Below are positions 8,877-52,413 of a stretch of 64,000 nt of DNA, in pieces (position 1 is the first letter of the stretch; every line of letters starts with the position of its first letter). Both the position numbers and the translations under genes were made by a program. The notes beneath the pieces are model-generated. The model saw only the letters and a list, made by a program, of their open reading frames with translations, did not search any database and was not told the origin of the DNA. The stretch covers positions 3,696,412-3,760,411 of the forward strand of contig NZ_CP132335.1 in the NCBI RefSeq assembly GCF_030758295.1, written 5' to 3'. The stretch is from Pararhizobium sp. IMCC21322. Its GTDB lineage: Bacteria; Pseudomonadota; Alphaproteobacteria; Rhizobiales; GCA-2746425.

Positions 8877-9893
8877 TTAGTATTGATCTTCGAAGCGCTT
8901 AGCCAGATCATCAATGTTCTCAGGCGGCCAGTTTTCGACTTCCATTCCAAGATGGAGGCCCATGCCAGCAAGAACTTCTTTGATCTCGTTCAGCGACTTA
9001 CGACCAAAATTCGGCGTCCGCAGCATTTCGCTCTCGGTCTTTTGAATCAGGTCGCCAATATAAACAATATTGTCGTTCTTCAGGCAGTTTGCAGACCGAA
9101 CAGACAGTTCCAACTCGTCCACCTTTTTCAGCAAGGCAGGGTTGAAGGCCAGTTCCGGTGCCTGATCTTCGACAACCTCTTTCTGAGGCTCTTCGAAATT
9201 CACAAAGATAGACAGCTGATCCTGCAGGATACGAGCCGCGAATGCGACAGAATCTTCAGGCGAAATTGAACCGTCAGTCTCGACAGTCATCAACAGCTTG
9301 TCATAATCCAGAACCTGTCCCTCGCGGGTGTTCTCGACCTTGTAAGACACTTTGCGAACAGGAGAATAAAGACTGTCAACCGGGATGAGACCAATTGGTG
9401 CATCTTCAGGGCGGTTACGCTCTGCAGACACATAGCCCTTCCCGGTATTCACAGTGAATTCAATGCGGATCTCGGCATCTTCGTCCAAAGTGCAGAGAAC
9501 CAGATCCGGGTTCAGAATTTCGACATCGCCAACGGTCTGAATATCCGCAGCAGTTACAGCACCAGGGCCCTGCTTGCGAACGGTCATCCGCTTGGGACCA
9601 TCGCCTTCCATCTTCACGGCAATGGCTTTAACGTTCAGGACAATATCCGTAACGTCTTCGCGCACACCTGGAATTGATGAAAATTCGTGCAGCACGCCAT
9701 CAATCTGGACAGCTGTAACAGCGGCACCCTGGAGGGATGACAGAAGAATGCGGCGCAGGGCGTTGCCGAGTGTCATGCCAAAGCCACGCTCAAGAGGCTC
9801 GGCTACGATAGTCGCTACACGGAGCGGCTCGTCACCGGGCTTAACTTCAAGCTTGGTCGGCTTAATCAGTTCCTGCCAATTTTTCTGGATCAT
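8877..9893 (-). CDS. rpoA: DNA-directed RNA polymerase subunit alpha
   Basis: The 338-residue subunit starts at ATG 9893 ([12 protein letters not shown]), eight bases after an AAAGGA site; an upstream extension has no support. The N-terminal dimerisation domain contains [21 protein letters not shown] Glu-rich linker joins it to the C-terminal domain, with helix-hairpin-helix segments [17 protein letters not shown] and [13 protein letters not shown] that contact UP elements and activators. The length is normal for alphaproteobacteria. It follows rpsK in the conserved rpsM-rpsK-rpoA-rplQ order. Confidence 0.98.
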
Positions 9894-9935
9894 ATCACAA
9901 TCCTTTCTCGGCCAGTTCAAAGGCCTTTTTCAGCA

Positions 9936-9971
9936 CCGAAATAGCATCCTGTCGTCACAGGTTGGTTTCGG
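9936..9971 (-). other. Stem-loop in the rpsK-rpoA gap
   Basis: In the 189-base gap between rpsK and rpoA an outer arm CCGAAA (9936-9941) pairs with TTTCGG (9966-9971), and an inner CCTGT (9948-9952) pairs with ACAGG (9957-9961). It is not followed by a T-run. It may control rpoA translation or mRNA processing; no known ribosomal leader was recognised. Confidence 0.4.
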
Positions 9972-10082
9972 CAAATTTGCTTCTCGGCTACGGCATCAAT
10001 TCCAACTGTGGGATTGGAACGACCGGCCAGAAAACACCAGATGGCTGCAGGGACTCGCCCAGCAGCCACAATGCGGTAAACT

Positions 10083-10469
10083 CTAAACGCGACGTCGTTT
10101 AGGAGGACGGCAACCATTATGCGGGATAGAAGTTACATCCCGAATTGTGGTTACTGTAAAACCAGCAGCCTGCAGAGCACGCAAAGCTGATTCACGGCCG
10201 GAGCCAGGTCCGCGCACTTGAACCTCAAGGGTCTTCATGCCGTGTTCCTGCGCCTTTTTGGCAGCATCTTCACTGGCAACCTGCGCAGCATAAGGGGTCG
10301 ATTTACGAGACCCTTTGAAACCCATTGTACCGGCAGAAGACCACGAAATTGTGTTGCCCTGTGCATCGGTAATGGTGATCATTGTGTTGTTGAACGTGGA
10401 ATTGATGTGAGCCACGCCGGAGATAATGTTCTTTTTCTCGCGGCGACGCACGCGTGCTTCTTTAGCCAT
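10083..10469 (-). CDS. rpsK: 30S ribosomal protein S11
   Basis: The 128-residue protein matches S11 of the small-subunit platform. It has [18 protein letters not shown] near the N-terminus and the conserved C-terminus [19 protein letters not shown], where the Asn-Gly pair is the site that forms isoaspartate in other bacteria. It lies between rpsM and rpoA as usual. Confidence 0.98.
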
Positions 10470-10545
10470 TTGGTAGTCCTTTCGATCTCAGCACCGCCGT
10501 AAACCAGCGGCTCCACCGAACAATCCGAAGAATGTCAGTAATTAA

Positions 10546-10914
10546 TTATTTCTTTTTACCGGCAATTGCCTTGGCCGGACCCTTACGGGTGCGGGCATTG
10601 GTATGGGTCCGTTGACCACGTGTCGGTAATCCACGACGATGACGCAGACCGCGATAGCAGCCCAGATCCATCAGACGTTTGATATTCATAGCCCGCTCGC
10701 GGCGCAGATCACCTTCAACCATATAGTCCTGGTCGATGGATTCACGAATCTGCAGAACTTCCGAATCGGACAGTTCGTTCACCCGGCGTTCCACCGGAAT
10801 GTTGACCTTGGTCACAATTTCCCGAGCTTTCGCGGCACCAATGCCGTGAATATACTGCAGGGCTATGACCACGCGTTTGTTGGTCGGAATGTTGACGCCA
10901 GCAATACGTGCCAA
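10546..10914 (-). CDS. rpsM: 30S ribosomal protein S13
   Basis: This 122-residue S13 has [15 protein letters not shown] at the start, the helix-two-turn-helix segment and the basic C-terminal tail [15 protein letters not shown] that reaches between the A- and P-site tRNAs. It opens the alpha operon segment after adk; no rpmJ or rpsD lies beside it, as is normal in alphaproteobacteria. Confidence 0.98.
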
Positions 10915-10984
10915 AACCGTCTCTCCTTAATGGATCATCAGAACTGTCGCTGATGAAGTAAATCTGCTTCCATTAGAACGAACA

Positions 10985-11025
10985 TGACCACCTCGGCCCC
11001 GGTTTTTCCGGCCCCAATGTGGTCA
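10985..11025 (-). other. Long stem-loop in the adk-rpsM gap
   Basis: Arms TGACCAC (10985-10991) and GTGGTCA (11019-11025) enclose an inner CCGG-TTTTT-CCGG palindrome. The element lies in the 187-base gap between adk and rpsM and lacks a downstream T-run on the minus strand. It could be a processing or attenuation site at the spc/alpha junction. Confidence 0.45.
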
Positions 11026-11101
11026 GTCATTCAATGTATTTGCGGTTATCTATAGGAGTTGGGACCGAGTCGTCAACCGCCAATTCCTAATAGATGACCC
11101 G

Positions 11102-11680
11102 TTACGCTATCTCTTTCAAGACCGTCTCGATTGACGCCCTTACTTCGTCCATGGATTGCATACCATCGACGGAACTAAGCAATCCTGTTCCGCTATAATA
11201 ATCAATCAATGGCTGTGTCTGCTCACGATACACTGACAAACGCTTGGCAAGTGCTTCAGCATTGTCATCCGCGCGCGGACCGCCTTCTGTTTCTTCAGCC
11301 CGCTTGACAATACGGTCCAGAAGAATTCCTTCGTCAACGGCAAGTTCAATCACCGTATCCAGTCTCAAACCCTTTTGCTCCAGCATTTCATCCAATGCTT
11401 CAGCCTGGGCAACTGTGCGCGGAAATCCATCAAGGATGAAACCCTTTGCACAATCCGGTTCATCAACCCTGTCCGATACAATACCGACGACAACTTCGTC
11501 GGATACCAGATCGCCACGGTCCATAATTTCCTTGGCCTGAAGGCCGATTGCTGTCTTGGCTGCAACTGCAGCCCTCAGCATGTCCCCGGTAGACAACTGG
11601 GCTATGCCGTGTTGTTCCACCATGAACTGTGCCTGGGTCCCCTTACCTGCCCCTGGAGGCCCCAGCAATATCAATCTCAT
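11102..11680 (-). CDS. adk: Adenylate kinase (short LID form)
   Basis: This 192-residue kinase interconverts ATP, ADP and AMP in the cytosol. The P-loop [10 protein letters not shown] is at residues 7-16, the AMP-binding segment STGDMLRAA follows, and [10 protein letters not shown] carries the conserved Arg. The LID region is short and lacks zinc cysteines, the form common in alphaproteobacteria. Its ATG overlaps the secY stop by four bases (ATGA), so its translation is probably coupled to secY. Confidence 0.97.
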
Positions 11681-13011
11681 CTACGTTTTCCCCCGCGCAA
11701 CTTCGACTTTTTGACAAGCCCCTCATATTGGTGCGCGAGCAAATGGCCCTGCACCTGAGAAACCGTATCCATGGTTACGCTGACCACGATCAAAAGGGAA
11801 GTCCCACCAAGGTAGAAGGGAACGCCGGTAGCAGAAATCAAAAATTCAGGAAGAAGACACACAACAACCAGGAATATGGCACCGACCACAGTCACACGGG
11901 TCAGAACATAATCAATATAGGTGGCCGTGCGCTCACCCGGACGGATGCCCGGAATAAAGCCGCCATGACGCTTCAGATTATCTGCTGTATCTGCCGGATT
12001 GAACACGATGGCAGTGTAGAAGAAACAGAAGAACACGATCATGGACGCGTAGAAAATCATGTAAAGCGGCTGACCGTGGCCAAGCCAGGCAGCAACAGCG
12101 TTCAGCCATTCAGGCCCGGTTCCGCTTGCAAAGCCTGCAACAGTCGTCGGCAGCAACAGAAGCGATGACGCAAAGATCGCCGGGATCACACCCGCTGTGT
12201 TCAGTTTCAATGGCAGGTGAGACGAATCACCCTGGAACATACGATTGCCCATTTGCCGCTTGGGGTACTGAATGAGCAGACGCCGCTGCGCCCGCTCCAC
12301 AAAGACGATCAGCATGATTGTGGCAATAGCCAAAACAATAATGATCAGAATGAGTAACGTTGAAATCGCACCCTGACGGCCAAGCTCCAGTGTGCCGGCA
12401 ATAGCGCCTGGCAGGCCGGCAACAATGCCAGCAAAGATGATCAGCGAAATGCCATTACCAATGCCGCGCGCGGTGATCTGTTCACCCAGCCACATCAGGA
12501 ACATTGTACCCCCCGTCAGGGAAATGATCGTCGACAGCTTAAAGAACCAGCCTGGATCGGTAACAATATTGGTACCGCCCTCAAGCCCGGCTGCAATACC
12601 ATAGGACTGAAGCACTGCCAGAAAAACCGTGCCGTAACGGGTATACTGGTTGATCTTTTTCCGGCCCTGCTCGCCCTCTTTCTTCAATTGCTCCAGTGTT
12701 GGAACAACTGTCGTCATCAGCTGAATGATAATCGAAGCGGAGATGTAGGGCATGATGCCGAGCGCAAAAATTGCCATCCGCTCAACAGCACCACCGGAAA
12801 ACATGTTGAACAGACCGATGACACCCTGCTGCGCCTGATCAAAGGCCGCGGCAAACGCATCAGGATCAATACCTGGCAATGGGATGTAGGTTCCAAGCCG
12901 AAAAACAAGCAACGCACCCAGTGTAAACCAGATGCGCTTCTTGAGTTCAGTTGCTTTGGAAAATGCGCCAAAATTGATATTTGACGCGAGTTGTTCAGCT
13001 GCTGAAGCCAT
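11677..13011 (-). CDS. secY: Protein translocase subunit SecY
   Basis: The 444-residue protein has the ten-helix SecY architecture. The N-terminal amphipathic helix precedes [25 protein letters not shown], and the periplasmic and C-terminal signatures [15 protein letters not shown] and [23 protein letters not shown]-like segments follow. It forms the inner-membrane export channel with SecE, which is encoded at 39.8 kb in this window, and SecG. It follows rplO as in most bacteria. Confidence 0.97.
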
Positions 13012-42218: not shown

Positions 42219-43040
42219 ATGAGCAAACCTTTTTATAAAAAGCCTCACAAAGGCGACCGCAAATCCAGGAGCGCCCCCAAGACCCAAAGCGACAAGTTTC
42301 GCGATATGGAGGGGCCAGTGTGGCTTTATGGATATCATGCTTGTGAAGCAGCGCTCAGAAACAGCAAAAGGCAAATCCGGCAGGCCAGCATCACAAAGAA
42401 TATGGCAGACCGCCTTCAGGCAGAATCAGTGCCCTTGCCGCAGGAGTGGACGGAAGTGCGCCCGAGAGATCTGGATGGTCTGGTCGAACGCGATGCTGTG
42501 CATCAGGGCATTGTGCTCGAAACCGAACCGCTGGATCAGCCAACGCTTGAGGAAGTACGACACCATGATCTGGTCGTTGTGCTGGATCAGGTCACAGACC
42601 CGCATAATGTCGGAGCTATTATCCGCTCGGCCTGTGCCTTGGGTGCAGGTGCTGTGGTGACAACATTGCGCAATGCACCCCATGAAACAGGGCTTCTTGC
42701 AAAAACAGCATCAGGCGCTTTTGAACACGTCCCATATATTCAGGTCACCAATCTGGCTCGCGCTGTTGAGGAAATGCAGGCATTGCAGTTTTCCGCTATA
42801 GGCCTGGACAGTGAAGGACCAATGGATCTGCTTGAGACGACAAAGCGTCAGAACGCGTCCAAAATTGCATTGTTGCTGGGCGCTGAAGGGCGTGGATTGC
42901 GCCGCCTCACCCGCGACCTGTGTGACGATCTTGCCCGGCTTGATATGCCGGGGCCGATCAAAAGCCTGAACGTTTCAAATGCGGCAGCCCTGTCTCTGTT
43001 TGTCTGTCGCCAGTCACTCAACGGGCAAAAATCAGACTAG
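42219..43040 (+). CDS. rlmB: 23S rRNA 2'-O-methyltransferase, TrmH/RlmB family (SPOUT)
   Basis: The 273-residue protein has a basic N-terminal extension, an RNA-binding domain (LYGYHACEAALRNSKRQIRQA) and a C-terminal SPOUT domain. The knot motifs are DPHNVGAIIRSACALGAGAV, LLLGAEGRGLRRL and LDMPGPIKSLNVSNAAALSLF. RlmB methylates G2251 of 23S rRNA in E. coli using S-adenosylmethionine. It faces tRNA-Tyr divergently and ends 38 bases from the convergent tctA. The ribosome binding site is weak. Confidence 0.92.
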   Translation: MSKPFYKKPHKGDRKSRSAPKTQSDKFRDMEGPVWLYGYHACEAALRNSKRQIRQASITKNMADRLQAESVPLPQEWTEVRPRDLDGLVERDAVHQGIVLETEPLDQPTLEEVRHHDLVVVLDQVTDPHNVGAIIRSACALGAGAVVTTLRNAPHETGLLAKTASGAFEHVPYIQVTNLARAVEEMQALQFSAIGLDSEGPMDLLETTKRQNASKIALLLGAEGRGLRRLTRDLCDDLARLDMPGPIKSLNVSNAAALSLFVCRQSLNGQKSD

Positions 43041-43078: not shown

Positions 43079-44572
43079 CTAAACACGGCGCAACAGCCTG
43101 TTTTTCCAGCCTTTGGGACACAACATCCAGACGATCAGCACCAGATTGATTGCCAAGATCGTTGCGGCAATGGGGCGGTCGATAAAGAAGCTGTAGTCAT
43201 TTCCGGAAATCACCAGCGAACGCCGGAAGTTACTCTCTGCAATCGGCCCCAGAACCATGCCAATCACCATCGGTGCCAGCGGATAATCATAGCGCCGCAG
43301 AACATACCCGATGGCGCCGAATGCCAGCATGACCCAAAGATGAAATGTGGAGCTTTCCAGCGAAAACACGCCGAGCACACATAGCAACGTAATAAACGGC
43401 AGCAGATACTGCTTCTTGAATTTAATGCAGGCGACAAAGAGCGGCGTCAGAAAAATGCCCGCAAAAAACAGAACGACATTGGCCGACATATAAGCCAGAA
43501 AAATTCCGCCCACGACATCCTGATGCTGTTCAAACAAATTTGGACCAGGGAAAAAACCCAATATGATCAGGGCTCCCATCAGCACAGCTGACGTAGCGTC
43601 GCCCGGAATGCCCAATGACAGGGTCGGAATAAGCGATCCACCAACTGTGGCATTGTTGGCCGATTCCGTGGCGACAATGCCGTCTTCAAACCCGGTGCCA
43701 AATTTCTCAGGCGTTTTGGAAGATGACCGGGCAATGGCATAGGCGGTAAAGGATGAAACCACGCCCCCTGCCCCCGGCAATGCTCCCAGGAACGAGCCAA
43801 TGGCCGAGGAGCGGACAAGATTCACCCAGCGACTGAGGACAATCAAAGCAGAATTCAGCGATGGGCGAACCCAGGGCACATCCGGATTGCGTGAAAAGAA
43901 ACCGGCCTTGATCTGAACAATCACTTCGGAGATCGCAAACAGACCAACAACCATAGCAACAATGTGAATGCCGCCGAGAAGCCCATTGACCCCAAAGGTG
44001 AAACGCAAATCATTGGCAAACTGATCATAGCCAATGGTGGAAATCAAAAGACCAAAAGCACCTGTCATGATGCCTTTCGACGTCGCTTCATTGGACACAA
44101 GCGCGATCACCAACAGCCCGGTCAGCGCCAGCGCGAATGTCTCCGGAGGTGCGAATTCCAAAGCAAACCGCGCCAGAAGCGGTGCCAGAAAGATCAGTAC
44201 AATTCCGCCCAGAACACCGCCAAGCGCGGAGGCTGAGATGGCAATGCCAACCGCATCCTTGGCACGCCCTTTTTGCGCCATTGGATAGCCGTCCAGCAAA
44301 GTAGCTGCGGCCAGTGGCGTTCCGGGAATACGCACCAAAATGGCGGAAATCGCTCCGCCACAAGAGCCACCAACATAAATGGCAATGAGCAGCCCCATCC
44401 CCGCCACCGGCTCCATATGAAAGGTAATCGGCAGTAAAAGAATGATGCCCATCAAGGGGCCAAGCCCCGGCAGAACACCAATTAACAGGCCCAGCAAGGT
44501 TCCCACCAGGACTGCGAAAACCGCGTCCATCGTGAAGAATAACTGAATGCCCTGGAAAAGTGGTTCAAGCAT
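43079..44572 (-). CDS. tctA: Tripartite tricarboxylate transporter, large membrane subunit TctA
   Basis: The 497-residue, about 12-helix protein has the family signature GVLPGLGPLMGIILLLPITF near the N-terminus and a second GALPGAGGVVSSFTAYAIARS midway, reflecting the internal duplication of TctA. It forms the inner-membrane permease of a TTT system with TctB and the periplasmic TctC. The genes read tctC-tctB-tctA with 18 bases between tctB and tctA. The solute cannot be deduced; neighbouring genes encode a sulfatase and a LysR regulator. Confidence 0.95.
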   Translation of the reverse strand: MLEPLFQGIQLFFTMDAVFAVLVGTLLGLLIGVLPGLGPLMGIILLLPITFHMEPVAGMGLLIAIYVGGSCGGAISAILVRIPGTPLAAATLLDGYPMAQKGRAKDAVGIAISASALGGVLGGIVLIFLAPLLARFALEFAPPETFALALTGLLVIALVSNEATSKGIMTGAFGLLISTIGYDQFANDLRFTFGVNGLLGGIHIVAMVVGLFAISEVIVQIKAGFFSRNPDVPWVRPSLNSALIVLSRWVNLVRSSAIGSFLGALPGAGGVVSSFTAYAIARSSSKTPEKFGTGFEDGIVATESANNATVGGSLIPTLSLGIPGDATSAVLMGALIILGFFPGPNLFEQHQDVVGGIFLAYMSANVVLFFAGIFLTPLFVACIKFKKQYLLPFITLLCVLGVFSLESSTFHLWVMLAFGAIGYVLRRYDYPLAPMVIGMVLGPIAESNFRRSLVISGNDYSFFIDRPIAATILAINLVLIVWMLCPKGWKNRLLRRV

Positions 44573-44590: not shown

Positions 44591-45118
44591 CTAAAACGGA
44601 GCAATTTCAAACACCCCGGCTGGAAGCACGACATTCAACAAACCGCCAAATACGTAGGCCGAAACATAGGATATGCCGACCGACAGACCCAGCAACAAAA
44701 ACACATTGCGCACATTCAAAAGAGCAAACAGACTTGCCAGCAATAAGGGGGTCGCAATGTGATAGCCCAACGGGCGCATGGCAAATATGTATAAAGCCAG
44801 AAACACGAGTGCCACAAAACTGCGTAGCGCCAACCCACGCTCCATTGGCGTTTCGTCTTGTTCGCTGGCTTCGGAACCACTTGCATCCGGATTGGCGCCA
44901 GAAAGCCGGAAAGTCTGTACGATCTGGAAAACGGCCAGAACAATCAGCACGATTGCCAGAACCTCCGGCACGAAAGCAGCATTATACTGCATGCTGCCGC
45001 TTGCTATGTCCTTTTCAACCAGATCCGTGTTGGTTTGCCAGAACACAATCGCAGCAACAACCAGGAAGAATATTGGTGCAATTAAACGTCCCGGACTGAT
45101 AGGAATTCTGGTCATCAT
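44591..45118 (-). CDS. tctB: Tripartite tricarboxylate transporter, small membrane subunit TctB
   Basis: The 175-residue protein has four predicted membrane helices, the TctB size and layout, with a hydrophilic Glu/Asp-rich loop after helix 2 (residues about 75-95). The start is ATG-ATG at 45118. It follows tctC after a strong hairpin at 45151-45188, so it is probably made at lower level than the binding protein. Confidence 0.9.
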   Translation of the reverse strand: MMTRIPISPGRLIAPIFFLVVAAIVFWQTNTDLVEKDIASGSMQYNAAFVPEVLAIVLIVLAVFQIVQTFRLSGANPDASGSEASEQDETPMERGLALRSFVALVFLALYIFAMRPLGYHIATPLLLASLFALLNVRNVFLLLGLSVGISYVSAYVFGGLLNVVLPAGVFEIAPF

Positions 45119-45204: not shown

Positions 45205-46206
45205 TTAATTCGCGGCTTTGACAGCCTCTTCTTCCCAGGTGATGGCATCCTTGGCCGATTCCAGCTGTGCCCGGGCACTATTACAAACATCACTATACTG
45301 GTCCGGAGAATACTCGGTCAGCACAAAACCGGTTGCTTCGATTTGAGCCCGAACTTCCGGATCATTGATTGTGGCTTCCATCGCGTCACGCAGAACAGCA
45401 ACACGGTCTTCTGGTGTGTCTTTACGAACCAACCACCAGTTCCAGCCCATCGGCGCAAGACCTGAAATGCCCAGATCAATTCCAAAATCCAAGGCTCTGT
45501 CAGCGCCGTCATAGGTCCGCTGCACCGACTCAAGTTCGCTGAGCGTCACAAGAATTTTCAAATTATCCTTGTTGGCATTGTAAACACCCGGATTGACGAC
45601 CAGCCAATCCAGCACACCCGACCGCAGATCTTTCATGCCAAGTTCAATGTCGTCATAGGGAACCGGACGAGAGACCAGATCAAGTGTTTGCAGCACTTTG
45701 GCTGAAACCATGTGCGGCAGCGACAATCCGTTGCCATTGTAGGCTGTTTTGCCAGGGTTCGCCTTCAGATATTCTATGAAGGTCGGAAAATCGGTGAACC
45801 GCTCCTCAGTGGGGCTGATTGCAATCGCAAAGGCGTTGGACGTGGCCGACCACAAAGGTGTGAAATCATCACATCCCCAGTCTGCCCGCCCGAACATTGG
45901 TGAAATCACCAATGGCGCAACATAGCCATCAAAAATCGTATAGCCGTCTGCCGGGGCTGCCAATGCGGTGTTGAACGCTTTCACGCCGCCAGCGCCTGGT
46001 GTTGCCACCACGGGTAATGGTTGGCCAAGACGCTCTGACATGCCTTCGGCAATCATCTGGCTCACACCATGCGCAGCGGTGCCAGGTGCCCATGGAAAGA
46101 TGTTCTGGATTTTACGTTCCGGAAATTCCGCAAATGCTGCGCTTCCCGCAAGTACGACTGCGGCGATGGTCGCCACACCCAGTGAGAATTTGGATTTAAG
46201 TGTCAT
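45205..46206 (-). CDS. tctC: Tripartite tricarboxylate transporter solute-binding protein TctC
   Basis: Starting at ATG 46206, six bases after AAGGAGGA, the 333-residue protein has a signal peptide (MTLKSKFSLGVATIAAVVLA...AFA, cleavage near residue 26). A mature TctC/Bug fold follows: FPERKIQNIFPWAPGTAAHG replaces the usual PxGGxxD segment, and PLPVVATPGAGGVKAFNTAL and LKANPGKTAYNGNG come next. It should bind a carboxylated solute in the periplasm. The gene is 38 bases after the sulfatase. Confidence 0.93.
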   Translation of the reverse strand: MTLKSKFSLGVATIAAVVLAGSAAFAEFPERKIQNIFPWAPGTAAHGVSQMIAEGMSERLGQPLPVVATPGAGGVKAFNTALAAPADGYTIFDGYVAPLVISPMFGRADWGCDDFTPLWSATSNAFAIAISPTEERFTDFPTFIEYLKANPGKTAYNGNGLSLPHMVSAKVLQTLDLVSRPVPYDDIELGMKDLRSGVLDWLVVNPGVYNANKDNLKILVTLSELESVQRTYDGADRALDFGIDLGISGLAPMGWNWWLVRKDTPEDRVAVLRDAMEATINDPEVRAQIEATGFVLTEYSPDQYSDVCNSARAQLESAKDAITWEEEAVKAAN

Positions 46207-46244
46207 ATCTTCCTCCTTTAGATTTTCTGTCATGTCATTATTCG

Positions 46245-47786
46245 TTAAGCGCCAGCGGACGCCGCTGTTTCCACCCGTGCGTCAAGGCCGTACCAGCCAT
46301 AGGCTTCTTGCGGTGTGTCGAGCTCTGCCAGGTGTTTCATCATCGCGGCATACAATCTGGTCTCGACAGTTTGGTCGCGAATTTTGGTTTTCTGATCTGG
46401 ATCAGACGCCAGATCATAAAGGGCAAATTCCGCCTCATCGAAGCCCAGCCCGTCATTCATGGGCACGCGTTTTGCGTCTTTCTGAGCTTCTATCTTCAGA
46501 AGCGGGAGCCCCTTGGTGAAGTCAAAACCGGCAGATAATTCTGCTGTCTTCAGTTCCTTGTTCGTGAAGGGTGCCGTCATGTGCTGAGGGTTGAGCGTAT
46601 ATTCATACAGCCCGTCTGCTGTCGTATCCGGCGGATAGTGGAACATCACATATCGACCATCGGTCACACCAATAGCCCCGCCAAATATACCGAACAGAAC
46701 TTCGCGGTCCTGTGGCGCGGAGCCCATAAGGTCCAGCAATGATGTGCCAAGCGTTTCAGGCGGCTTTTCAAGCCTGAAGCAATCCAGAATGGTCGGCATG
46801 ATGTCAGGTGTCTGCGTCAGCTGACTGCACCGTGTTCCGGCCTTATCCGCATGATCTGGATGATAGAACATCATCGGGATGTGAGCGATTTCCTCATAGT
46901 AAGGCATCCGGCATTTGCCCCACCATTGATGCTCTGACAGTAGAAACCCGTGATCCGTGCTCATGATCAGGGCTGTATCCTTCCACAAATCATGCGCGTC
47001 GAAATAGTCCAGCAGTTTACCGAAATAGGCGTCACACATCCGCACCAGAGCCGCATAGCTGGCGCGTATTTCGGCTATTTCGGAATCGCTTTCATCAACC
47101 GGTGCGTATGAGGGCCAGTTCAGGACACCGCCGTCATGGTCGCTGTCTCCTGCCCGGCGATATTTTTCCGGTGCATGGAATGGCTCATGTGGATCAAAGG
47201 TTTCGATCTGCAAAAACCAGTCATCTGCGTCCCGGTTATGGTCCAGAAACTCAAATGCGGATTCAAAACATTTTGGTCCGGGAAGCTCTTCCTCTTTCTG
47301 CATGAACTCAAGATTGACCGCGTGGCGGTTCTTCCATGAGTTGCGATCAAAATTATAGTGCTTCGGGTTAAAGGTGCGCTTGAACTTGTCGGTCGGCGGA
47401 TCAAGCAAAACCTTCCAGGAATCATATTCCTGCCCGCGGATCATGTCCCACGAACTGTAGCGTGTGTGGTAGCCTGCACCACCATCTTCAAAATAGTGAT
47501 AGTGATCGGTGATTAACCGGGAATGCGTCCCTGATTGATCCAGCATTTGGGCAAAGGAATTGTCGTAGGGCTCAAGAGGTCCCCAACTGCGATGCATCAT
47601 ACTCAAACGCCCGGAGTGCAAATCCCGCCTTGCTGGCATGCATGGAAGGCTGCCAACATAGTGTTTGTCAAAGGTCACAGACCGTTTGGCAAAACGCTCG
47701 AAGTTTGGCGTGTCACTTTTTGGACCGCCATAGCTTTCCAAAGCCAGACGGTTGAGTGAATCGAACATTACGAAAACAAATTTCAA
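46245..47786 (-). CDS. Formylglycine-dependent sulfatase (alkaline-phosphatase superfamily)
   Basis: The 513-residue protein has the sulfatase maturation motif C49-M-P-A-R53, in which Cys is converted to formylglycine, an N-terminal metal Asp in VMFDSLNR (D9), a second metal site STDHGFLLSEH and the HEPFHAPEKY segment. It lacks a signal peptide, so it is probably cytoplasmic. The start is TTG 47786 with GGGGAGG eight bases upstream; the first ATG would cut off the first strand. It leads the tct operon. Phosphonate- or phosphodiester-hydrolase activity is an alternative within this superfamily. No formylglycine-generating enzyme is in the window. Confidence 0.88.
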   Translation of the reverse strand: MKFVFVMFDSLNRLALESYGGPKSDTPNFERFAKRSVTFDKHYVGSLPCMPARRDLHSGRLSMMHRSWGPLEPYDNSFAQMLDQSGTHSRLITDHYHYFEDGGAGYHTRYSSWDMIRGQEYDSWKVLLDPPTDKFKRTFNPKHYNFDRNSWKNRHAVNLEFMQKEEELPGPKCFESAFEFLDHNRDADDWFLQIETFDPHEPFHAPEKYRRAGDSDHDGGVLNWPSYAPVDESDSEIAEIRASYAALVRMCDAYFGKLLDYFDAHDLWKDTALIMSTDHGFLLSEHQWWGKCRMPYYEEIAHIPMMFYHPDHADKAGTRCSQLTQTPDIMPTILDCFRLEKPPETLGTSLLDLMGSAPQDREVLFGIFGGAIGVTDGRYVMFHYPPDTTADGLYEYTLNPQHMTAPFTNKELKTAELSAGFDFTKGLPLLKIEAQKDAKRVPMNDGLGFDEAEFALYDLASDPDQKTKIRDQTVETRLYAAMMKHLAELDTPQEAYGWYGLDARVETAASAGA

Positions 47787-47886
47787 ACGCTCCTGCCTCC
47801 CCTAGTCCAGAACAACGGTTTTGACCGCTTTTTTGAAAGTTAGGCGGATTTAGCAAGAACTTCCAATAGCAATAAATGCAGAAGCC

Positions 47887-48825
47887 ATGACAAAATATCA
47901 TGACTCTTCATTCCTGTGGTGGCATGGTGCCGGCATGCAGTTTCTTTTCTCCAGACGATTTCAGCATTTTCGATCCACTTATGATGCCGGCAATCTGCGA
48001 ATTGCCGCAGAACAAGCTGGCGTGTCTCAACCCGCCCTTTCCAAAAGCATCAAGGATCTGGAGAATCATATGTCGGCCAGATTGTTTGAACGTACGTCTC
48101 GTGGGGTCATTCCAACCAAGGCGGGGCGAATCCTGAATCGTCACCTGCTGAATATGGAGCAGCAGGCAAGATACGCCGAAATCGAGGTGGGAGGATTGTT
48201 ACAAGGGCGCGGCGGCAGCATTCGGCTTGGCGCCGGATTGGTCTGGGCTCAAAGCCTTGTGCCACATGCACTGGCCGAATTTCACCAGCAATTCCCGAAT
48301 GTCCGGCTTGAGGTTTCCAATGCCATCTCAAACATACTGGTGCCGATGCTCATTCAGGGCACATTGGATCTGATTGTCTGTGAATTGACCGAAACCAAAC
48401 TGCCAGATGAGTTTCAAATCGGAGCGTCATGGACCACAAGACGATGCCCGTGGGTACGGTCGGGCCATCCGCTCACCCAAAAACCCGAAATCAGTTGGCA
48501 GGAATTGGCCGAATTTGGCTGGGTCGGCCATGCGTCTGACAGGAATTTGAAGGAAAAAATTGCATCAAAGTATCGCCAGATTGGCTGCGCGCCGCCACAG
48601 ATCGTCATGGAAACCTCTTCTCTCTCCTCCATGATGCAGATCATAAGCGAGACGGATCTCGTGGCGGTTCTGGCCGATCAACTGGAGGGCGACGCCCTGT
48701 CCCGTGATCTGGTACGCCTGCCAATTTCTGAAGATAGCTGGAACATGGAAAGCGCCGTCATGTTTCGATCGGAAGTGAGTGACATCAAACCATTTCGCTG
48801 GCTGATTGACGAATTAAGCCAGTAG
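47887..48825 (+). CDS. LysR-family transcriptional regulator
   Basis: The 312-residue protein has the winged helix-turn-helix (FQHFRSTYDAGNLRIAAEQA then VSQPALSKSIKDLENHM) and a periplasmic-binding-protein-like effector domain from about residue 110. It may start at 47887 or, with a more typical N-terminus, at ATG 47935 (MQFLFSRRFQ); neither has a strong ribosome binding site. It diverges from the sulfatase-tct operon across 100 bases and is the likely regulator of that operon. A CGGTTTTGACCG element at 47816-47827 lies between them. Confidence 0.92.
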   Translation: MTKYHDSSFLWWHGAGMQFLFSRRFQHFRSTYDAGNLRIAAEQAGVSQPALSKSIKDLENHMSARLFERTSRGVIPTKAGRILNRHLLNMEQQARYAEIEVGGLLQGRGGSIRLGAGLVWAQSLVPHALAEFHQQFPNVRLEVSNAISNILVPMLIQGTLDLIVCELTETKLPDEFQIGASWTTRRCPWVRSGHPLTQKPEISWQELAEFGWVGHASDRNLKEKIASKYRQIGCAPPQIVMETSSLSSMMQIISETDLVAVLADQLEGDALSRDLVRLPISEDSWNMESAVMFRSEVSDIKPFRWLIDELSQ

Positions 48826-49035: not shown

Positions 49036-49431
49036 ATGCTTGTTTCTTCCCTTGACCATGTAAACATCAGAACGGGCAAATTGCAGCCCATGATTGACTG
49101 GTACACGAAGTTCCTGGGCCTGAAAAACGGGCCTCGTCCTGATTTCGGTTTCCCCGGTGCATGGATGTATCTGGGCGACCTTCCCATTGTGCATATGGTT
49201 GTTGTGGAAGGTGATGGCGGTGCCGGATCGGAACAGGAACTGAAGCTGGAACACTTCGCGTTTCGGGGGAACTCCTGGGCGGAATTCAAAAACCTACTGG
49301 AGACCAACGGCGCGCCGTACAAGCTTGTAACGATAGAAGAAGTTGATATTCTACAGTGCAATATTTGGGATCCTGACCAGAACCACATTCATGTTGACTT
49401 TGCGCTCTCTGAATCCGGAGCCGTCACATAA
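49036..49431 (+). CDS. VOC-superfamily (glyoxalase/dioxygenase fold) protein
   Basis: The 131-residue protein has two beta-alpha-beta-beta-beta modules. It starts LDHVNIRTGKLQPMIDWYTK with a metal-type His, has a central His in ELKLEHFAFRG, and ends CNIWDPDQNHIHVDF, the position of the last metal ligand. GGAG lies eight bases before the ATG. The reaction is unknown; lyase, dioxygenase and resistance proteins share the fold. It stands alone downstream of lysR, and a role in using the TTT substrate is only speculation. Confidence 0.85.
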   Translation: MLVSSLDHVNIRTGKLQPMIDWYTKFLGLKNGPRPDFGFPGAWMYLGDLPIVHMVVVEGDGGAGSEQELKLEHFAFRGNSWAEFKNLLETNGAPYKLVTIEEVDILQCNIWDPDQNHIHVDFALSESGAVT

Positions 49432-50616: not shown

Positions 50617-50853
50617 TCATAAAGGGACTTTCATTCCCCGTTGTTCAACGGAAGATAGAAATACGTCAACAGGTATTAACAGTCCGTTAGACGCGTCTGA
50701 ATCTGGCGCTACAAACAGCGGATAACTTAAGGTTTTCGCATCCGATTATACAACTGCTTCAGGATAGAGCCCAGTGAAAGCGCTTTCGATTTTCTTCGTT
50801 TGACACTCATATAGCTTCGATTTATGACGAGCATAGTATGGAGAAACCGTTTC
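50617..50853. other. Divergent regulatory region between response regulator and glpD
   Basis: The 237-base stretch contains the glpD promoter at 50800-50828 and a perfect palindrome GAAAGCGCTTTC at 50776-50787, just upstream of the -35 box, a plausible regulator site. No ORF here is credible. Confidence 0.5.
50800..50828 (+). promoter_or_regulatory. Candidate glpD promoter
   Basis: A perfect -35 TTGACA (50800-50805) is followed after 17 bases by TATGAC (50823-50828). Transcription would start near 50835, which rules out the ATG at 50824 and supports 50854 as the glpD start. Confidence 0.6.
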
Positions 50854-52413
50854 ATGACTGAACAAAATACCGCCATTCTCAACGACACTACGCAAGCAAC
50901 CCTGGACCAACCTTATGATGTGTTCATTGTTGGCGGGGGCATCAATGGCGTTGGAATAGCGCGGGATGCTGTTGGCAGAGGCTTTCGGGTCGGCCTTGCG
51001 GAAATGAACGATCTGGCATCGGGAACATCGTCCTGGTCGACCAAGCTGATCCATGGCGGATTGCGCTATCTGGAACACTATGAATTTCGGCTGGTTCGCG
51101 AGGCTCTGATGGAGCGCGAAACCTTGTGGGCCATGGCGCCTCATATCATCTGGCCACTCAGATTTGTGCTGCCGCACCATAAGGACACGCGACCAGCTTG
51201 GCTGATCCGTATTGGTCTGTTTCTGTATGACAATATTGGTGGCCGCAAAAAACTGCCCGGCACGAAAACACTCAACCTCAAGCAGGACCCGGCCGGACAA
51301 CCGCTGAAGCCACATTTCCAGAAGGCTTTTGAATATTCCGATTGTTGGGTCAATGACGCCCGGCTGGTTGTGCTGAATGCACGCGACGCGGCGGATCGGG
51401 GAGCCGATATCAACACCGGCACCAAAGTCGTCTCACTACAGCGCGCAGATGAGCTATGGCAGATAGGTCTTGAAGACAAATTGACCGGGAAATCCTGGCA
51501 AGTTTCCGCGCGCTGCGTGGTGAACGCTGCCGGACCCTGGATTGACCACGTGCTGACGGGTGCCCTTGGCTACAATGATGCCCACAATGTGCGTCTGGTG
51601 CAGGGCAGCCACATCGTTATAAAACAGAAATTTACCGACCCACGCGCCTACTTCTTTCAAAACAATGATGGCCGCATCTTCTTTGCAATTCCCTATGAGC
51701 AGGATTTCACCCTGATCGGCACGACGGACCGGGATTATGATGGTGATCCCAAATCAGTTGCCATCACAGAGGAAGAAACCGACTATCTGCTCAGCGCGGC
51801 AGCCGAATATTTCAGCGAGCCGGTGCGCCGGGATGATATTGTATGGACCTATTCCGGTGTCAGACCGCTTTACGATGATGGCGCGTCGAAGGCACAGGAA
51901 GCCACACGGGATTATGTACTGAAAAGCGAAGGCGCTGAAAACGAACCGAAGCTGATCAATATTTTTGGTGGAAAAATAACCACTTACCGGCGGTTAGCTG
52001 AATCGATGCTTGAGAAGATTGAAGACGCGATCGGAGCTAAAGGCGCATCCTGGACGAAAGGCGCGACCCTGCCCGGCGGTGATTTTGATGCACTTTCATT
52101 TGATGATGAGTTGGCAAAATTGCAAAGGGACTTTCTTTTCCTTGAGCCAACCCACGCCTGGCGGTTGTTCCGCCTTTACGGAACGCGTGCACGCGCCATC
52201 CTGGGCAGTGCAACAAAGCTCGATGATCTGGGTCAGAATTTCGGCGCCGACCTGACGGCGGCAGAGGTGCGCTACCTGATCAGTCAAGAATGGGCGCGCA
52301 ATGCTGATGATGTGTTGTGGCGGCGCACAAAACGGGGCCTGATTATTCAGGACAAAGCCGACATTGCACGGCTGAATGAGTTCATGAAACAGGAACTGTC
52401 GGGCAACACTTAA
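50854..52413 (+). CDS. glpD: FAD-dependent glycerol-3-phosphate dehydrogenase
   Basis: The 519-residue enzyme oxidises glycerol 3-phosphate to dihydroxyacetone phosphate and feeds electrons to quinone at the inner membrane. The FAD-binding VGGGINGVGIARDA lies at residues 26-39. Also seen are ASGTSSWSTKLIHGGLRYLE, GTTDRDYDGDP and the NIFGGKITTYRRLAE segment, and the C-terminal alpha-helical domain is present. The ATG at 50854 has GGAG upstream and lies downstream of the predicted transcription start. No glpF, glpK or glpR is nearby. Confidence 0.96.
   Translation: MTEQNTAILNDTTQATLDQPYDVFIVGGGINGVGIARDAVGRGFRVGLAEMNDLASGTSSWSTKLIHGGLRYLEHYEFRLVREALMERETLWAMAPHIIWPLRFVLPHHKDTRPAWLIRIGLFLYDNIGGRKKLPGTKTLNLKQDPAGQPLKPHFQKAFEYSDCWVNDARLVVLNARDAADRGADINTGTKVVSLQRADELWQIGLEDKLTGKSWQVSARCVVNAAGPWIDHVLTGALGYNDAHNVRLVQGSHIVIKQKFTDPRAYFFQNNDGRIFFAIPYEQDFTLIGTTDRDYDGDPKSVAITEEETDYLLSAAAEYFSEPVRRDDIVWTYSGVRPLYDDGASKAQEATRDYVLKSEGAENEPKLINIFGGKITTYRRLAESMLEKIEDAIGAKGASWTKGATLPGGDFDALSFDDELAKLQRDFLFLEPTHAWRLFRLYGTRARAILGSATKLDDLGQNFGADLTAAEVRYLISQEWARNADDVLWRRTKRGLIIQDKADIARLNEFMKQELSGNT

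Follow-up and report, generated by a model that had tools for sequence, protein, structure and literature searches.

Gene organisation of the locus

A gene for a formylglycine-type sulfatase and the genes of a tripartite tricarboxylate transporter (TTT) lie side by side in a 64,000-nucleotide stretch of Pararhizobium sp. IMCC21322 DNA (contig NZ_CP132335.1, positions 3,696,412 to 3,760,411; hereafter the window), the source genome of which, G000, is a single contig of 5.25 Mb. The genes follow one another on the minus strand in the order sulfatase, TctC, TctB, TctA, and a LysR regulator gene, located upstream, diverges from them (Table 1). All three TTT subunits are present: TctA, TctB and TctC pass the Pfam cut-offs, and their genes are adjacent on one strand. 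The open reading frames (ORFs) and Pfam matches confirm the layout proposed in a preliminary description of this DNA, namely a sulfatase co-directional with TctCBA and a divergent LysR gene; the range given there, 45205-47827, takes in the sulfatase and TctC, while TctB and TctA lie outside it.

The gaps along the sulfatase-TctC-TctB-TctA series are 38 (or 11), 86 and 18 bases. The 38-base distance described earlier holds for a TctC start at ATG 46206, which is preceded by AAAGGAGGA, whereas the longest ORF, from 46233, gives 11 bases. A terminator scan found 14 sites against 6.9 expected, and no terminator-like site in the 38-base gap. The sulfatase has a TTG start, which aligns with TTG or ATG starts in the nearest relatives; AGGGGAGGCAGGAG ends 3 bases upstream of it and AGGGGAGG 9 bases upstream. 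The 100 bases previously counted to LysR apply to the ORF opening at 47887, but the ATG at 47935 is the likelier start, and the distance then becomes 148. Among the 25 best of the 53 NCBIfam matches of LysR, none reached its cut-off. Beyond TctA lies an ORF (42219-43040) convergent with it. Downstream of LysR and outside the unit, the window holds genes for a small glyoxalase-family protein (49036-49431) and a glycerol-3-phosphate dehydrogenase (50824-52413).

Table 1. Features of the sulfatase-TTT locus, in window coordinates.
Feature	Position	Strand	Remarks
Formylglycine-type sulfatase	46245..47786	-	513 aa, TTG start; PF00884 105.5 bits (cut-off 25), SGSH_C 44.5 bits
CMPAR codons, sulfatase residues 49-53, C-x-P-x-R formylglycine motif	47628..47642	-	C49 = 47640-47642; from sequence
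TctC solute-binding protein	45205..46206 (longest ORF from 46233)	-	PF03401 63.5 bits (cut-off 27)
TctB small membrane subunit	44591..45118	-	PF07331 69 bits (cut-off 29.1)
TctA large membrane subunit	43079..44572	-	PF01970 472.2 bits (cut-off 28.9)
Divergent intergenic region, sulfatase / LysR	47787..47886	.	From sequence
Divergent LysR regulator	47887..48825 (alternative ATG 47935)	+	PF03466 105.7 bits (cut-off 28), PF00126 63.1 bits (cut-off 26.6)

Pairing of sulfatases with TTT systems

The pairing of sulfatase and TTT genes is no accident. Ten of the 25 sulfatases of G000 have a TctA gene on the same strand within 2.5 kb, while random placement averaged 0.48 and never exceeded 5 in 1000 draws. 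Random placement is blind to the general clustering of catabolic genes, for which the comparison with tripartite ATP-independent periplasmic (TRAP) transporters serves as a control: at the same distance and strand, only one of the 25 sulfatases lies near any of the 41 DctM genes. These counts were taken after split matches of one gene had been merged by hand (sulfatases from 26 to 25, DctM from 43 to 41, and several in relatives). Nine of the 28 TctA genes are paired, the ten sulfatases sharing nine TTT systems; in the preliminary description the window genes were treated as one operon. With its 28 TctA, 41 DctM and 25 sulfatase genes, G000 is rich in importers of small acids.

The test was repeated in six related genomes, four of which had been picked for holding the sulfatase family of the window. 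In G115, 12 of 33 sulfatases are paired (null mean 0.76; 12 unreached in 2000 draws), in G196 two of three (null reached once) and in G329 one of three (null reached 48 times); in G366 the pairs amount to three of six, as a count without a null.

The ten paired sulfatases of G000 all carry C-x-P-x-R and fall into four groups of a 25-row tree (trees were built by a quick method). With S for the sulfatase and C, B and A for TctC, TctB and TctA, five gene orders are found: S-C-B-A, S-C-A-B, C-B-A-S, B-A-C-S and B-A-S-C. The paired TctA are scattered among the unpaired ones, with 7 changes in a tree of 27 TctA rows (shuffled mean 7.0) from which one of the nine paired TctA (L027), extracted as a 22-residue stretch only, was omitted. 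Taken together, the four places in the sulfatase tree, the five gene orders and the scatter of TctA indicate that the pairing arose repeatedly.

Six further regions of G000 (L069, L074, L075, L079, L083, L084) hold more TTT-sulfatase pairs, with other sulfatase subfamilies and gene orders; in L069 one TTT is flanked by two sulfatases. Two other paired subfamilies were traced in 297 genomes each, and 11 regions outside the genus were examined. A same-strand TTT gene adjoins the sulfatase in L231, L237, L238 and L241, a TTT lies nearby on the opposite strand in L232 and L240, and none was found near the sulfatase in L233-L236 and L239.

The window-type family across genomes

The sulfatase family of the window occurs in 29 of the 397 genomes of the order (E up to 1e-60). 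Up to three candidates were scored per genome, and of the 45 matches the four weakest (G368, G318, G071:C14, G204) were omitted; the 41 examined comprise 17 linked to TTT, 21 linked to ATP-binding cassette (ABC) transporters and 3 linked to neither. A second, named set, consisting of the best 79 of 574 confirmed stretches, provided 82 family rows (TTT 22, ABC 18, TctC-only 16, TRAP 5, none 21), the TTT rows belonging to Hyphomicrobiales (7), Rhodobacterales (6), Rhodospirillales (4) or to genomes without an order (5). As a conserved neighbourhood, which the preliminary description had named as a check, LysR-sulfatase-TctCBA recurs in Hyphomicrobiales, Rhodobacterales and Rhodospirillales, in the last of which the exact order was seen in one metagenome-assembled genome (L164). 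Chelativorans salis (L134) and Pararhizobium mangrovi (L129) are among the relatives that carry it.

Gene maps were drawn for 125 of the 128 family ORFs. The TTT label needs 11 changes on the family tree, compared with 33.3 after shuffling; 34 of the 39 family-linked TctA fall into one 37-row clade (SH-aLRT 100); and a divergent LysR gene adjoins the sulfatase in 31 of 39 TTT rows versus 8 of 41 ABC rows. Owing to this clustering, the single TctA clade and the LysR linkage, LysR-sulfatase-TctCBA looks like an inherited unit, and the sulfatase lineage as a whole looks to have swapped importers.

The sulfatase and its maturation

The window sulfatase is of type I (formylglycine), with a profile score over the cut-off, the C-x-P-x-R motif and the metal and catalytic residues. 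An alignment of 23 sequences shows no variation at D9, C49, R53, H200, D278, H279 and K291, nor at P48, C49, P51, A52 and R53 around CMPAR. By order, and partly by spacing (40 residues from Asp to Cys, 12 from His to Lys), D9, C49, H200, D278, H279 and K291 correspond to Asp14, Cys54, His201, Asp296, His297 and Lys309, the residues named in PMC5870055 for the Sinorhizobium meliloti choline sulfatase. The same paper gives 9 of the 11 active-site residues of choline sulfatase as common to the phosphonate monoester hydrolase (PMH) of R. leguminosarum, so sulfate and phosphonate cannot be told apart by these residues. In NCBIfam the protein is over no family cut-off: it scores 125.9 bits with PehA (phosphonate monoester hydrolase NF045661, equivalog cut-off 900), 88.7 with arylsulfatase and 85.8 with choline-sulfatase (TIGR03417, equivalog cut-off 433.45). 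The predicted fold is that of an S1 sulfatase, with a best Z of about 25. Fold comparison was dropped as an arbiter between sulfatase and PMH, the structures of both being tied at Z 23.8 to 25.3, and no active-site geometry is claimed because the stretches 46-59 and 281-300 of the model have a pLDDT below 50. Judging by eye from its N-terminus, which shows no signal peptide, the enzyme is probably cytoplasmic.

G000 encodes one protein with a formylglycine-generating enzyme (FGE) domain (341 aa, 239.1 bits), which carries GGSFLCHPSYCYRYR, presumably the FGE cysteine pair motif; the sulfatase-maturing enzyme that was to be sought elsewhere in the genome is thus at hand. No match to the anaerobic sulfatase-maturating enzyme (anSME) model TIGR03942 was found in G000. 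In keeping with a dependence on formylglycine, maturase genes lie close to some of the 122 non-redundant family sulfatases (the 125 rows less L128, L147 and L163): within 6 kb, nine sulfatases have a gene of the anSME cluster, four of these nine being TTT-linked, and nine have one of the FGE-like cluster, none of these being TTT-linked. By profile, the anSME of L122 exceeds the TIGR03942 cut-off (360.2 of 349.45), a radical SAM plus SPASM gene lies near the family sulfatase in L094 and L111, and FGE lies near it in L095, L130, L136 and L251; the FGE-like gene of L118 stays under every profile cut-off. L093 and L094 each have their anSME gene downstream of TctA and co-directional with it.

The TctC binding protein

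The TctC model (pLDDT 86) shows the TTT binding-protein fold; the mature protein probably begins at about residue 36. The top eleven rows of the fold search are TTT binding proteins (Z 26.1-32.7) and the first non-TTT chain scores 15.0. The closest folds are the unliganded terephthalate-binding TphC (Z 32.7) and TBP (Z 32.5), while ligand-free Polaromonas TctC reaches 31.8 and closed TphC 26.6. In its ligand loop the window protein reads PWAPGTAAHGVSQ where BugE has PFxxGGxxD, GGxxD being the usual form. In the accessible part of Sun et al. 2026 (PMC13390454), Thr25 and Asp26 of the ligand-loop region are described as conserved in TTT binding proteins; the conserved Asp, which is not defining for transport, is absent from the window TctC. 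By eye, 34 of the 79 TctC rows in the alignment have the changed loop PWxPGx(A/T)(M/L)xxSQ, relatives reading PWxPG.AMxxSQ, and the Asp is kept in 39 of the other 45. Such a changed loop may point to a different ligand.

For the reverse test, a window-type TctC model, built from sulfatase-linked loci only and applied to at most five candidates per genome, gave 18 matches in 9 of the 397 genomes of the order, and 15 of the 18 adjoin a family sulfatase.

A second TTT of G000 (L270, G000:C1:1380000-1399900, at 9588-12732) belongs to the TctC clade of the window; it is accompanied by a GntR regulator gene and lacks a sulfatase. Its loop is altered too (PWGPGTAMAADQ), and the changed loop was dropped as a mark of sulfatase-linked TctC. 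Genes for Gfo/Idh/MocA and ThuA proteins lie near this GntR-TctCBA unit. The G040 counterpart (L271) has an SMP-30/gluconolactonase gene close by, a hint that the paralogue may take up aldonates or lactones.

Neighbouring enzymes and the substrate

The functions of neighbouring genes were taken from protein clusters, some members of which were checked by profile. In the L087 unit of G000, a 2-hydroxyacid dehydrogenase gene lies directly 3' of TctA. One strand of L108/L251 carries TctC, TctB, TctA, three sulfatases (together with a 445-aa protein that has no Pfam match), MR_MLE, galactarate/altronate dehydratase and FGE in succession, and L159 holds UxuA and MR_MLE genes. Genes of a DUF4432 cluster accompany 14 of 40 ABC-linked family members (e.g. 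L086 and L119-L123; four checked by profile), which suggests desulfated sugars as the substrates of DUF4432 proteins. Of the 15 TctC-only members, 5 have an Aldose_epim gene nearby. In five Burkholderiales loci (L191, L197, L202, L205, L206) the family sulfatase is followed by TctC and accompanied by an aldose-1-epimerase-like gene (two checked); TctA and TctB were not seen in the stretch examined.

Other neighbours speak against a single answer. A gene of ~500 aa follows the family sulfatase in L160, L171, L187 and L189, and in L160 and L189 it is a malonyl-CoA synthase by NCBIfam; a divergent CoA-transferase gene is present in L189. The family sulfatase of L152, L158 and L172 has a choline-sulfatase over the cut-off in its vicinity, as well as genes for GMC oxidoreductase or aldehyde dehydrogenase; L158 also holds an NMT1-type binding protein and L152 a TctC. 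The TTT ligands named in PMC5812351 include citrate, sulfolactate, terephthalate, galactarate/glucarate and adipate, and a description from 2026 adds alginate oligosaccharides (PMC13390454). The sugar-acid enzymes beside some relatives give an indirect hint of sulfated sugar acids, and an O-sulfate of a sugar acid or of another hydroxy acid may be put forward, tentatively, as the likeliest substrate.

Proposed function and alternative explanations

The locus probably encodes a module for import and desulfation, in which a small sulfated organic acid is taken up by the TTT and desulfated in the cytoplasm; this applies to the mechanism, apart from the identity of the substrate. TctC would capture a small organic acid bearing a sulfate ester in the periplasm, and TctAB would carry it inward by secondary transport. 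The cytoplasmic sulfatase, once converted to its active form by the FGE of G000, whose gene lies elsewhere in the genome, would split off the sulfate, the free acid then entering central metabolism and the sulfate being assimilated or exported. The divergent LysR would probably control the operon by sensing substrate or product. Gene content and order, the active-site residues of the sulfatase, the predicted TTT binding fold, the FGE gene, recurrence and enrichment are the observations on which this rests; from them co-transcription, cytoplasmic location, transport, hydrolysis, regulation and product fate are inferred. The uptake of an organic anion followed by intracellular hydrolysis, as suggested in the preliminary description, thereby gains support at the genomic level through the recurrence, the FGE gene and the terminator-free gap.

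Several observations weigh against this function. Within 8 kb on the same strand the difference from TRAP narrows, with 5 of 25 sulfatases of G000 near a DctM gene versus 11 of 25 near a TctA gene; 15 of the 25 have no TctA within 2.5 kb, and in G017 (0/3) and G019 (0/1) no sulfatase is paired, as counts without a null. On the G000 sulfatase tree the TTT label takes 5 changes, at least 3 of them forced by starred branches, against a shuffled mean of 8.0, and only 9 of 500 shuffles were as low; since the label is more clustered than in most shuffles, some of the pairing was inherited. A same-strand TTT lies within 4.5 kb of only 39 of the 125 family rows, the others being 41 ABC, 16 TctC-only, 5 TRAP and 24 none, so the family is not tied to TTT; these classes include near copies (L128=L090, L147=L106, whose sulfatases are identical, and L162/L163) and one misassigned row (L137_9819, own neighbour ABC), and 'none' covers short contigs and opposite-strand transporters. 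Neither the FGE-like nor the DUF4432 cluster occurs within 6 kb of any of the 38 TTT-linked members, and the remaining 3 of the 18 reverse matches represent one GntR-TctCBA unit without a sulfatase (L270-L272) in the same TctC clade. Finally, the genes of the window operon include no catabolic gene, no common LysR box was recognised by eye in an alignment of 23 upstream regions (palindrome output was obtained for 12 of the 23), and promoter-like sites stay at chance level (5 versus 4.3 expected).

As the sulfatase scores best with PehA, ahead of arylsulfatase and choline-sulfatase, as PMH entries (4uph, 2vqr, 4upk, 2w8s) make up four of its top five PDB sequence matches, and as neither the tied structures nor the shared active-site residues separate the two enzymes, the hydrolase might be a PMH-type phosphonate monoesterase/phosphodiesterase and the TTT an importer of a phosphonate or phosphodiester anion. 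The PehA cut-off is far off, however, no phosphonate-metabolism gene was found among the seven window proteins scanned, and some relatives have same-strand runs with other sulfatases (L108, L095, L130) or nearby choline-sulfatases; a PMH therefore seems quite improbable. That the adjacency is accidental or a remnant of gene shuffling is scarcely credible in view of the enrichment over the TRAP control, its replication, the recurrence across orders and the reverse test, even though family relatives with ABC, TRAP or no linked transporter exist.

Sulfur scavenging is a common role of sulfatases, and an operon that responds to sulfur limitation, with sulfate as the useful product, would agree with the lack of a carbon-catabolic gene and with the match of LysR to a CysB-family model (57.8 bits, cut-off 402). 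Yet CysB is low among the LysR model matches, the presence of 25 sulfatases along with several importers speaks for a range of substrates, and dehydratase, epimerase-like or CoA-ligase genes occur in some relatives, which makes scavenging rather doubtful. The substrate might also be a sulfated aromatic acid, such as a phenolic acid sulfate, instead of a sugar acid: TctC is nearest in fold to unliganded TphC and TBP, and PcaQ ranks second among the LysR models (110 bits, cut-off 303.8). This is considered unlikely, for the ranking of folds may mirror conformation, as the scores of ligand-free Polaromonas TctC and closed TphC indicate, the window operon has no further enzyme, and sugar or sugar-acid enzymes lie near several relatives.

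Comparison with known systems

The sulfatase and TTT families are known; the new element is their repeated coupling. No description of a TTT-sulfatase operon was found in full-text searches of open-licence literature (bioRxiv excluded, subscription journals few), in line with the earlier remark that no characterised combination of a TTT with a dedicated sulfatase was known to its author, nor is one described in the available parts of PMC7029141, PMC6277516, PMC10838667 and PMC6383258. It is conceivable, though we hold it with reserve, that TTT systems are a major and repeatedly evolved route in Alphaproteobacteria for low-molecular-weight sulfate esters (probably sugar acid sulfates stemming from sulfated polymers, algal or other), which would enter whole and be desulfated inside; the window-type TctC loop would have been rebuilt for such ligands, and a cell of this genus would carry about nine or more modules of differing specificity. 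The breakdown of sulfated compounds by bacteria is mostly discussed in terms of polysaccharide loci and extracytoplasmic sulfatases. If true, uptake through a TTT before desulfation would assign a role to many TTTs and sulfatases that now lack one and indicate an environmental pool of small sulfated acids, and a neighbouring sulfatase would be a strong prior in ligand work that the TctC ligand bears a sulfate ester.

PehA and other PMH enzymes resemble the window sulfatase in fold, formylglycine and a similar active site, and differ in the distant cut-off and in the absence of a phosphonate-metabolism gene among the window proteins scanned. Sulfolactate is a sulfonate, with a C-S bond, and is cleaved by other enzymes. 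SlcHFG of Roseovarius nubinhibens and Chromohalobacter salexigens, to which sulfolactate transport is assigned, is comparable as a TTT for an organosulfur acid, but no sulfatase is mentioned with it in the available text (PMC5812351). The choline sulfatase of S. meliloti belongs to another family, by the scores given above, and acts on another class of substrate. Cationic choline is not known as a usual TTT ligand. Choline sulfatase is comparable as a formylglycine enzyme acting on alkyl sulfates, the metal-site and acid residues of which have counterparts in the window sulfatase (PMC5870055). Although the alginate-oligosaccharide TTT of Vibrio sp. C42 is linked to alginate lyases, and 'sulfat' does not occur in the main text of its description, it is comparable as a TTT that imports a uronate saccharide for intracellular breakdown (PMC13390454).

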